NCBI GenBank assembly: GCA_018970725.1
Contig: JAGWVU010000040.1
Span: 1 to 46,254, forward strand
Source of the DNA: Verrucomicrobiota bacterium
GTDB lineage: Bacteria > Verrucomicrobiota > Verrucomicrobiia > Verrucomicrobiales > DEV007
Direction of reading: 5' to 3'
Length of the DNA stretch: 46,254 nucleotides
Part shown: positions 11,784 through 14,099 of the stretch, in pieces
How positions within the stretch are numbered: the stretch's first letter is position 1
How the letters are laid out: every line of letters starts with the position of its first letter
Made by a program: the position numbers and the translations under genes
Notes under the pieces: model-generated
What the model was told of the DNA's origin: nothing
Seen by the model: only the letters and a program-made list of their open reading frames with translations
Database searches by the model: none

Positions 11784-14099
11784 ATGAGATTTTTTCTCTG
11801 CATCCTTGTTTTGGCCGGGGGGAGTGCCGCCTTTGCCCAGGGCACCAAGGCGGACTACGAACGGGCGGCCGCCCTGGGGAAGCTCGCGGAGGGCAAGGTC
11901 TTCCGGGCCCGGGTCCAACCGCACTGGATCGAAGGCGGCACCGCGTTTTGGTATCGGATCGAGACCGCGCCGCGGGTCTTTGAAGTGGTCCGGGTGGACG
12001 CGGAGACCGGCGAGCGCACCGTGTTGACCGATCCCGCCCGGCTTCCGCAAGGTTTGGGGACCGGGGAAATCCGGCGCGAGGAGAAACCGAGACCAAGCGT
12101 CGGAGGCGGGCCGGAAACGAGCCTGCGCTTCCGCAACACGAGCGGCGCGAAAGTCCGGCTGTTTTGGATCGACACCGGAGGACGGGCCAAGGCGTATGGC
12201 GAGGTCGCGCCCGGGGCGGAGCATCGGCAGCACACGTTCGCCGGTCATGTTTGGCTGGTGGAGGATGAAAAGGGGGGGCGGATCGGGGTCTACGAGGCGC
12301 CCGACCTCGCGGGCGAGGTGGTCATCGACGGGTCCGAACCGGTCGCGGCGAAGCCCGCGCCGCAGGCGGAGACGCCGGGATGGAAGCCGTTTCTCCGGGA
12401 TTCCAATGTCTGGATGCGCCATGGCGGGACCGGGGAAGAGTTCCAGCTCTCCCGGGATGGCCGCGCCGGGGATGCCTACCACGAACCGCTGGTAGTTTCC
12501 CCGGACGGCAGGAAGCTGGCGGCGTTGCAGGTGCTTCGGGCGGAGGAGCGGGAGATTGCGGTGGTGGAATCCGCCCCCAAGGACCAACTGCAGCCGCGGC
12601 TGCACACTTATGGTTATGCCAAGCCCGGGGATGAGATCGACCGGCCGCGGCCCCGGCTGTTTGATCTCACCACGCGTCGGGCCGTGCCGGTTGCGGAGGA
12701 TCTCTGCGCCAATCCGTGGAATCTGGCGGATTTGCATTGGTTTGCCGGGAGCGAAGCCTTCGCCTTTCTATTCAACGAGCGGGGCCATCAGCGGCAGCGC
12801 GTCGTGGCGGCCGATGCGGTCACGGGAGCGACCCGGGCGGTGGTGGAGGAGACGAGTCCGACGTTCATCGATTACTCGCGGAAGACGCAGTTGCATTGGC
12901 TGGACGGGACCGGCGAGCTTCTCTGGGCGAGCGAGCGCGACGGGTGGAATCATCTGTGGCTTTACGACGTGCGTTCCGGGCGGGTGAAGAATCAGGTGAC
13001 CCGGGGACCTTGGGTGGTGCGGGAGGTGGTCCGGGTGGATGCGGAAAAGCGGCAGGTTTGGTTCAAGGTGATGGGGTTCCGTCCGGGGGAGGATCCCTAC
13101 CATGTGCACTTGGCGAGGGTGAATCTCGATGGCAGCGGGCTCACCGTTCTCACCGAGGGGGACGGGACACACGAATGGGAGTTTTCCCCGGACGGAAGGT
13201 GGTTCATCGACCGCTGGTCACGGGTCGACCTCCCGCCGGTCACGGAGTTGCGCCGGGCGTCGGACGGGAAATTGGTCCGGGAATTGGAGCGGGCGGACAT
13301 CGGGGCGTTGCTGGCGGCGGGTTGGCGGCTTCCGGAGCGTTTTTCCGCCCCGGGGCGCGACGGCAAGACAGCGATTTACGGGGTGATTTTCCGGCCGATG
13401 AACTTTGAGGCGTCGCGTCGGTATCCGGTATTGGAGAAGATCTATGCGGGGCCGCACGATTTTTTTGTGCCGAAGCCGTGGGGCTTGTCCCTTCAGGCTC
13501 AGGGAATGGCGGAGCTGGGATTCCTCGTGGTGCAGATCGACGGGATGGGAACCAACTGGCGTTCCCGGGCGTTTCACGACGTTTGCTGGAAGAATCTCAA
13601 GGACTCCGGTTTTCCGGACCGGATCGCCTGGCTCAAGGCCGCGGCGGCGCGTCATCCGGAGTTCGATTTGACGCGGGTGGGGATTTACGGGGGGAGCGCC
13701 GGGGGGCAGAGTGCCTTGGCCGCGTTGCTTTTTCATGGGGAGGTTTACCGGGCGGCGGTGGCGGACTGCGGCTGCCATGACAACCGGATGGACAAGATCT
13801 GGTGGAACGAGGCCTGGATGGGATGGCCGGTCGGGCCGGAATACGCCACCAACTCCAATGTGGTCAACGCCGGGCGCCTCACTGGGAAGCTGCTGCTCAC
13901 GGTGGGCGAGGTGGACCGCAATGTGGATCCGGCGTCCACCATGCAGGTGGTCGATGCCCTCATCAAGGCGGACAAGGACTTCGAGTTGCTTGTGTTGCCG
14001 GGGCGGGACCATGGCGCCGGGGAGACTCCCTATGCGGCCCGGAGGCGGGCGGATTTCTTTGTCCGTCACCTGCTTGGCGTGGAGCCGCGCCGGATGTAG
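11784..14099 (+). CDS. Prolyl oligopeptidase-family S9 (DPP-IV-like) peptidase with VHL-beta-like domain
   Basis: This 771-residue secreted protein has a signal peptide at 1-19 (cleavage after AFA-Q). A von Hippel-Lindau beta-like domain follows at about 112-172. Next come a beta-propeller region (about 200-530) typical of DPP-IV, and an alpha/beta-hydrolase domain with Ser638 in YGGSAGGQ, Asp711 in the GEVDRNVDP segment and His743 in GRDHGAGETPY. Spacing and order match the S9B catalytic triad. In the VHL-like part, Trp128, Tyr138, His150, Thr151, Phe152, His155 and Trp157 align without gaps to human VHL Trp88, Tyr98, His110, Ser111, Tyr112, His115 and Trp117, the hydroxyproline-pocket set (alignment from memory). 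It probably cleaves X-Pro or X-Ala dipeptides in the periplasm or outside. The long open frame upstream of 11784 is not coding. Confidence 0.88.
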   Translation: MRFFLCILVLAGGSAAFAQGTKADYERAAALGKLAEGKVFRARVQPHWIEGGTAFWYRIETAPRVFEVVRVDAETGERTVLTDPARLPQGLGTGEIRREEKPRPSVGGGPETSLRFRNTSGAKVRLFWIDTGGRAKAYGEVAPGAEHRQHTFAGHVWLVEDEKGGRIGVYEAPDLAGEVVIDGSEPVAAKPAPQAETPGWKPFLRDSNVWMRHGGTGEEFQLSRDGRAGDAYHEPLVVSPDGRKLAALQVLRAEEREIAVVESAPKDQLQPRLHTYGYAKPGDEIDRPRPRLFDLTTRRAVPVAEDLCANPWNLADLHWFAGSEAFAFLFNERGHQRQRVVAADAVTGATRAVVEETSPTFIDYSRKTQLHWLDGTGELLWASERDGWNHLWLYDVRSGRVKNQVTRGPWVVREVVRVDAEKRQVWFKVMGFRPGEDPYHVHLARVNLDGSGLTVLTEGDGTHEWEFSPDGRWFIDRWSRVDLPPVTELRRASDGKLVRELERADIGALLAAGWRLPERFSAPGRDGKTAIYGVIFRPMNFEASRRYPVLEKIYAGPHDFFVPKPWGLSLQAQGMAELGFLVVQIDGMGTNWRSRAFHDVCWKNLKDSGFPDRIAWLKAAAARHPEFDLTRVGIYGGSAGGQSALAALLFHGEVYRAAVADCGCHDNRMDKIWWNEAWMGWPVGPEYATNSNVVNAGRLTGKLLLTVGEVDRNVDPASTMQVVDALIKADKDFELLVLPGRDHGAGETPYAARRRADFFVRHLLGVEPRRM

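Follow-up and report, generated by a model that had tools for sequence, protein, structure and literature searches.

A gene for a secreted-looking peptidase with an inserted von Hippel-Lindau (VHL) beta domain lies in a 46,254-nucleotide stretch of a Verrucomicrobiota bacterium genome (GenBank assembly GCA_018970725.1, contig JAGWVU010000040.1, positions 1 to 46,254, forward strand), called the window below. VHL is a human tumor suppressor, the hydroxyproline (Hyp) reader of the animal oxygen-sensing pathway. Here, we report that the bacterial domain is, close to certainly, a VHL beta domain, that its Hyp-pocket residues are conserved among relatives, and that the domain probably recognizes Hyp.

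Gene and protein features

The gene encodes 771 amino acids, starting from the ATG at 11784; the listed open reading frame shares this frame but begins mechanically farther upstream, at 10149. Linkers were taken from a predicted full-length model and its predicted local distance difference test (pLDDT) scores. The features are as follows.

11784..14099, + strand: S9/DPPIV-type peptidase with inserted VHL beta domain
11784..11837, + strand: probable Sec signal peptide, residues 1-18 (read by eye)
12048..12065, + strand: low-confidence linker ahead of the VHL domain, residues 89-94 (pLDDT <50)
12096..12332, + strand: VHL beta domain, residues 105-183, seven strands (Pfam PF01847, PDB match, predicted model)
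12345..12371, + strand: low-confidence linker past the VHL domain, residues 188-196
12390..13238, + strand: DPPIV_N beta-propeller match, residues 203-485 (Pfam; profile positions 59-354, start of the profile unmatched)
13479..14072, + strand: Peptidase_S9 catalytic domain, residues 566-763 (Pfam)

Identity of the VHL beta domain

A first-pass annotation, made from the sequence alone, had proposed a VHL-like domain at 12117-12299. Translation of this segment gives residues 112-172 of the peptidase, with frame, coordinates, and residues correct, which rules out a frame or coordinate error. The Pfam VHL model (PF01847; curated cut-off, 21 bits) matched residues 115-162 of the whole protein with 35.3 bits (E, 1.2e-8) and an 83-amino-acid domain piece with 39.7 bits (E, 4.9e-10). 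When the window domain alone was searched against PDB with phmmer, human VHL was recovered (E, 1.3e-4), aligned without gaps over residues 105-162 at an offset of 40, and up to an E of 10 the matches were VHL chains only (24 distinct sequences). The gapless alignment proposed earlier for residues ~112-172 at this offset holds over 105-162 and fails beyond, the match ending at about residue 162.

A profile from 41 bacterial domains (alignment A1), run against 177,635 PDB sequences, also found only VHL (24 sequences up to an E of 1; best E, 2.6e-13); this profile is not blind, because 40 of its 41 rows were originally chosen by the Pfam VHL model, whereas the window's own single-sequence PDB match is. 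A chance or low-complexity match is ruled out by the Pfam score and the PDB profile search. No PF01847 match was found in 14 control genomes (0/14).

The domain model predicted from A1 without templates (mean pLDDT, 90.6) is a seven-stranded VHL beta sandwich. All 50 matches listed by Foldseek were VHL complexes (best E, 5.6e-7), all 50 entries listed by VIA were VHL structures, and the VIA superposition on human VHL gave a Z of 13.4 and a root mean square deviation (rmsd) of 1.8 over 85 residues, with model residues 5-89 on VHL 63-157, the VHL side being ten residues longer; because AlphaFold was trained on PDB, this predicted-fold match is not independent of known VHL structures. The first-pass annotation had named a significant VHL profile match and a beta-sandwich fold as checks on its proposal, and both were obtained. 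The domain name is one that Pfam already gives.

The likeness to the metazoan pVHL beta domain (PF01847) extends over the fold, the gapless core alignment, and pocket positions W88, Y98, S/T111, H115, and W117. Unlike pVHL, the window protein is bacterial and secreted-looking and has Thr for Ser111; N67 and F91 are not retained in relatives, and the bacterial domain is ten residues shorter in its last part. In place of the elongin C-binding alpha domain of the pVHL E3 ligase receptor, a DPPIV_N match follows the beta domain.

Putative hydroxyproline pocket and its conservation

The central site of human VHL is given in the accessible part of PMC9528729 as Trp88, Tyr98, His110, Ser111, His115, and Trp117, with the Hyp hydroxyl bonded by Ser111 and His115, the Hyp carbonyl bonded by Tyr98, and His110 taking part via its backbone carbonyl. 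As the first-pass annotation had it, W128, Y138, H150, T151, F152, H155, and W157 stand opposite W88, Y98, H110, S111, Y112, H115, and W117 in the alignment.

Relatives for the conservation counts came from searching named genomes for the peptidase, which gave at least 584 confirmed stretches (two patterns were used, so that one gene may count twice). The 80 loci nearest to VHL-containing queries are the named relatives; 70 carry the VHL domain and 10 do not, a ratio that is not a natural frequency because the loci are those closest to VHL-containing queries. Two pairs among the 70 are >90% identical. The pocket residues and their counts in these 70 are as follows.

12165..12167, + strand: Trp128 (VHL Trp88), pocket wall; 70/70
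12195..12197, + strand: Tyr138 (VHL Tyr98), pocket; Tyr 68/70, Phe 2/70
12234..12236, + strand: Thr151 (VHL Ser111), hydroxyl-binding side chain; Thr 66/70, Ser 4/70
12246..12248, + strand: His155 (VHL His115), hydroxyl-binding side chain; 70/70
12252..12254, + strand: Trp157 (VHL Trp117), pocket wall; 69/70, Phe 1/70

These five positions take ranks 2-6 of 87 by entropy conservation (Asn78, Trp88, and His115 are tied as invariant), and all five residues are present together in 67 of the 70. Were positions ranked at random, the chance that five given ones all come within the top six would be 1.6e-7, a loose yardstick because of shared structure. The outer contacts on the HIF side are poorly conserved (N67, rank 73; F91, rank 86). 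Among the 25 peptidase rows of A1, window included, W88 is kept in 25, Y98 in 24, S/T111 in 25, H115 in 25, and W117 in 24; the corresponding counts for the 16 nonpeptidase rows are 16, 13, 14, 11, and 16. Of the seven residues to which a pocket role was given earlier, the five side-chain positions are the strongly conserved ones; the side chains at His110 (identical in 8/25 peptidase rows and 56/70 named relatives) and Tyr112 (F or Y in 69/70) are less conserved. Judged from the alignments, such a pattern would be expected of a Hyp pocket that does not serve HIF.

Placement in the enzyme and peptidase specificity

The window protein has DPPIV_N and Peptidase_S9 domains and a Ser-Asp-His triad (Pfam, alignment, and model). 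The triad is invariant among the named relatives.

13695..13697, + strand: Ser638, catalytic nucleophile; 80/80, aligned with the PmDAP IV serine
13914..13916, + strand: Asp711, catalytic triad; 80/80
14010..14012, + strand: His743, catalytic triad; 80/80

The full-length model (pLDDT, 85; predicted template modeling score, 0.80) superposes on PmDAP IV with a VIA Z of 29.8 and an rmsd of 5.4 over 592 residues. It places the VHL domain after the strand at 78-81 and before the propeller strands that resume at 200, with the low-confidence linkers 89-94 and 188-196 on either side. Bacterial DPP IV enzymes (PmDAP IV, 5yp1-5yp4; Stenotrophomonas DAP IV, 2ecf) share the propeller, the alpha/beta hydrolase, and the triad with the window protein, which differs in its VHL insert, in a 13-residue gap near the double-Glu helix, and in its S1 residues. 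According to the accessible part of PMC5807507, the blade 1-2 insertion of PmDAP IV reaches the active site, where its Arg106 contacts substrate, and a double-Glu motif grips the substrate N terminus. From the order of the elements, the VHL domain would occupy about the same place as this substrate-contacting loop.

The 13-residue gap, relative to both PmDAP IV and 2ecf, lies at or beside the double-Glu helix. One alignment puts two clade-consensus Glu beneath the Glu pair and the other does not; the window has Gly229-Asp230. Counted in the alignment columns of the window sequence, 22 of the 70 relatives with the domain have Glu and 13 have Asp at position 229, and 51 have Asp at position 230. 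At S1, PmDAP IV Asn614, Val639, Trp642, Tyr645, and Tyr649 correspond to Ala, Cys, Asn, Asp, and Trp in the window clade (paired by eye); these residues (window residues 639-674, 13698-13805) are invariant in 80/80, with VHL present or absent. A polar S1 pocket as an adaptation to the VHL partner is ruled out, being common to the 10 VHL-negative relatives. The intact triad argues for a peptidase, and the protein is predicted to be a serine peptidase of the S9/DPPIV family. X-Pro dipeptidyl specificity is not to be assumed, given the gap at or beside the double-Glu helix, the unconserved Glu pair, and the differing S1 residues; the label "proline-directed" in the first-pass annotation would derive solely from S9/DPPIV membership.

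The position of the domain bears on a first alternative, that it is a mere structural lid or spacer of the propeller whose pocket residues are kept for folding and bind nothing specific. In its favor, nine of the 10 VHL-negative relatives have another segment at the VHL place (L171 has a short linker only) and all 10 keep the same triad and S1 residues, and Trp117 also belongs to the folding core of human VHL in the accessible part of PMC3688787. We consider this explanation unlikely, since His115 and Ser/Thr111 are both kept in 70/70, above the core position F76 (Phe in 57/70) and above F119 (Phe in 2/25 peptidase rows of A1), the domain recurs in unrelated enzymes, and gene linkage in the window's family tracks VHL and not DPPIV_N alone (both below).

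Distribution and domain partners

PF01847 was found in 53 of 74 genomes of the window's GTDB family (84 places), in 19 of 288 genomes of a phylum sample (the window's own genome included in both), and in 32 of 246 genomes of a second phylum, reached via L131 (titled Planctomycetota); these counts are lower bounds because the Pfam search missed the L131 genome, where a custom model finds the domain. Titles of the records from the peptidase scan are mainly Verrucomicrobiota and Planctomycetota, with some Armatimonadota and one Poribacteria.

Forty VHL proteins were scanned with Pfam. DPPIV_N/S9 peptidases made up 24 (among them L070, cut by a contig end), 6 were sulfatases, 4 had weak, sub-cut-off matches to M90/ATLF-type metallopeptidases, LRR, SASA esterase, AXE1-type hydrolase, CAP, and MACPF proteins were found once each, and one protein had no other domain. 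The VHL score of L093 (20.7 bits) is slightly below the cut-off of 21. Several of the 40 have a signal-peptide-like start (by eye).

This range of partners is what a second alternative builds on: acting as a general cell-wall-binding module, the domain would take up in its pocket not peptidyl Hyp but unmodified proline, a glycan, or some different cyclic or hydroxylated residue. Fusions to sulfatases, SASA-type and AXE1-type esterases, and LRR, CAP, and MACPF proteins agree with it, as does Ala at the His115 position in 5 of the 16 nonpeptidase rows of A1. The peptidase-fused copies, however, keep the whole pocket, and some stand beside 4-hydroxyproline (4Hyp) epimerase-type genes, and we rate this alternative as similarly improbable.

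Three observations on architecture stand apart. L060, L064, L067, and L071 carry a C-terminal VHL domain on ~400-amino-acid proteins, those with weak sub-cut-off M90/ATLF similarity. L090 (G307:C2, 1091-6001, − strand) encodes 1,637 amino acids with an N-terminal VHL domain and a MACPF domain. In L065 and L057 (G036:C26, G037:C786), two or three VHL matches are clustered per contig, including a sulfatase and a SASA esterase.

Gene neighborhoods of relatives

Pro_racemase-family genes (PF05544) adjoin VHL genes in six genomes of the window's family. Within the family, 6 of 84 VHL matches lie ≤5 kb from such a gene, compared with 0.097 expected from gene density (Poisson, 1e-9), and DPPIV_N genes lie near one in 4 of 14 cases with VHL and 0 of 46 without (Fisher p, 0.002); both p-values overstate independence, because the four linked peptidases group with an unlinked peptidase in a single clade. 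Of the 23 VHL matches in the phylum sample, 2 were linked (G290, G316).

Neighbors at the named loci were counted in up to 5 kb of flank per locus. Among the 70 VHL-positive loci, 4Hyp-epimerase-type genes were found at 8, DHDPS-type genes at 9, DAO (D-amino acid oxidase or dehydrogenase) genes at 7, M24 Xaa-Pro aminopeptidase genes at 7, and POT oligopeptide symporter genes at 3, with any of the five at 18 loci and none at 52; the counts describe rather than test, because the search models were built from clusters in the same loci. None of the five occurred near the 10 VHL-negative loci (0/10), an unfair control because 9 of these are titled Planctomycetota, a phylum in which no VHL linkage was seen. 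An aldehyde dehydrogenase (ALDH) neighbor occurs in L181, and a relative of it in L161.

For four scanned epimerase-type proteins, the best NCBIfam model was 4-hydroxyproline epimerase (4HypE; best E, 8e-109 to 1e-123; 363.7-412.7 bits), compared with an E of 2e-43 to 7e-62 (148-209 bits) for the proline racemase model, all four scoring under the NCBIfam equivalog cut-offs (442, 450 bits). Plasmid genes H3, H4, and H6, annotated as 4-hydroxyproline epimerase, show 56-57% identity to the L086 protein, and its further plasmid matches are annotated only as proline racemase family; among the matches listed, plasmid matches of the DHDPS-type neighbor carry a family name only or no name. D-Amino acid oxidase, DHDPS, and ALDH are established pathway partners or neighbors of 4HypE, and proline racemase function is associated with the D-proline reductase PrdAB (PMC4113996, accessible part). 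Four layouts are given below; gene starts in L179, L180, and L181 are mechanical.

L179: DHDPS, epimerase, VHL-peptidase, DAO; the VHL-peptidase overlaps each of its two neighbors by four bases
L181: DAO, epimerase, DHDPS, ALDH, VHL-peptidase; ALDH and VHL-peptidase share four bases
L180: DHDPS, M24, epimerase, VHL-peptidase, POT, DAO
L145 (titled Verrucomicrobium sp. BvORR106): all six families of L180

VHL-peptidase genes of some relatives apparently lie in operons. Enzyme families of known 4-hydroxyproline clusters (4HypE, D-amino acid oxidase, DHDPS, ALDH) recur at L059/L179, L086/L180, L145, L079/L181, L121, and L128, with ALDH seen at L181; the relatives' loci differ in adding the VHL-peptidase and, in some, the POT symporter and the Xaa-Pro aminopeptidase. 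That the linkage reflects general proline or peptide scavenging, with the racemase acting on proline and no special role for Hyp, is very improbable: the M24 and POT neighbors also handle proline peptides and the epimerase scores are sub-cut-off, but the DHDPS, DAO, and ALDH neighbors fit the 4Hyp pathway, proline racemase function goes with PrdAB (PMC4113996, accessible part), and for the four proteins the E values of the 4Hyp-epimerase models are lower than that of the proline racemase model by 50 or more orders of magnitude.

A quick-method tree of 106 peptidases, built with the VHL domain removed, distributes the 14 linked rows over several distinct groups with good support, including Armatimonadota (L127) and different Verrucomicrobiota lines; relative to the other labeled rows, they require a minimum of 2-3 changes. 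The link is either old with frequent loss or has repeatedly arisen. PF05544 occurs anywhere (E, <1e-50) in 21 of 35 genomes of the named loci, namely, 17 of 26 with VHL at the locus and 4 of 9 without, which is no clear difference (counted by eye). The record titles of L094, L146, and L154 (Akkermansia muciniphila), L112 (Klebsiella pneumoniae), and L134 (Proteobacteria) are at odds with the tree, and these are probably misnamed metagenome bins.

Proposed function

VHL homology, the predicted fold, pocket conservation, the intact triad, and gene linkage in relatives are observed; from them we infer Hyp binding, cleavage near Hyp, and a window copy acting like the operon copies. The best explanation, and a likely one, is a secreted peptidase whose VHL module docks Hyp-rich chains. 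In such an enzyme, the VHL beta domain, inserted between the first propeller strands and the remaining propeller of a secreted S9/DPPIV-family serine peptidase, would recognize 4Hyp or a short Hyp-containing segment of Hyp-rich proteins with its pocket, and the flexible tether would keep the bound chain at the peptidase mouth while the peptidase cuts nearby. In the operon-bearing relatives, the products would be imported by the oligopeptide symporter and trimmed by the Xaa-Pro aminopeptidase, and the freed Hyp would be degraded via the 4Hyp epimerase, the DAO-type oxidase, the DHDPS-type deaminase, and the aldehyde dehydrogenase. A VHL-type domain with the same pocket, in a gene context in relatives that resembles Hyp catabolism, suggests that bacteria probably use the module to find and eat Hyp-rich proteins. 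The first-pass annotation had suggested recognition of proline- or Hyp-rich substrates such as plant or algal cell-wall glycoproteins or collagen-like chains; pocket conservation and the recurrent linkage to putative 4Hyp catabolic genes support Hyp as the ligand.

Besides the shared clade, the uneven control, and the sub-cut-off epimerase scores, several observations weigh against docking of Hyp-rich chains. In the Planctomycetota sample, 0 of 45 VHL matches of any architecture lie ≤5 kb from PF05544 (by eye). PF05544 was not found in the window's own genome (96.5% complete), no gene family of 4Hyp clusters was observed in the surroundings of the window gene, none of the five neighbor families occurs at the loci of its closest relatives (L054, L055, L094), and its clade in the tree (WIN, L094, L054) is without any linked genes. 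The window domain has Thr where VHL has Ser111, and a cluster-borne sulfatase-VHL protein (L174) has Ala for His115 and Arg at the Tyr112 position. A prolyl hydroxylase (PF13640) that would make the target had no match in the own genome at an E of 0.001; it is present in 28 of 72 genomes of the family. Because the window clade is unlinked and its genome has no PF05544 or PF13640 match, the function of the window copy would be carried over by homology. GH127 beta-L-arabinofuranosidase, considered as a possible mark of plant Hyp-arabinosides, occurs in 18 of 72 family genomes, among which the window's own genome has a single match (E, 6.5e-12); this counts neither for nor against the proposed function.

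The sulfatase of L174 (G020:C495, 4894-6627) carries its VHL domain at the C terminus and lies between epimerase and DHDPS/DAO genes; its VHL part, below the E limit of the locus Pfam scan, is known from the PF01847 genome search. This domain is possibly adapted to modified (glycosylated or sulfated) Hyp.

A wider proposal, possible but doubtful, sees the VHL beta domain as an ancient extracellular Hyp reader of bacteria that moved between secreted peptidases, sulfatases, and esterases and served to scavenge Hyp-rich glycoproteins; animals would have obtained their oxygen-sensing VHL from such a module, the pocket being in place beforehand.

Relation to earlier work

A VHL-domain protein of Litorilituus sediminis resembles the present one as a bacterial secreted protein with a VHL beta domain; in the accessible part of PMC9002001, it is interpreted as a tumor suppressor, with no Hyp catabolism or peptidase fusion. 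The literature searched, mostly without subscription journals, contained no VHL-peptidase and no VHL domain in Hyp catabolism; the reading of the VHL domain as a Hyp-scavenging module tied to a Hyp catabolic operon was not found there and is new in this sense. A branch of the domain in bacteria that shares the pocket and occurs in secreted-looking hydrolases near Hyp-catabolism genes offers a concrete use of the domain beyond oxygen sensing and makes the origin of VHL testable. To our knowledge, it would be the first Hyp-recognition module in the bacterial breakdown of Hyp-rich glycoproteins or collagen. Small Hyp-binding domains may also serve as reagents.

Downstream of the window peptidase, with no evident functional tie to it, lie genes at 14109-14741, 14700-15562, and 15559-18306, which we take to resemble hisH, fdhD, and a hybrid histidine kinase, respectively.

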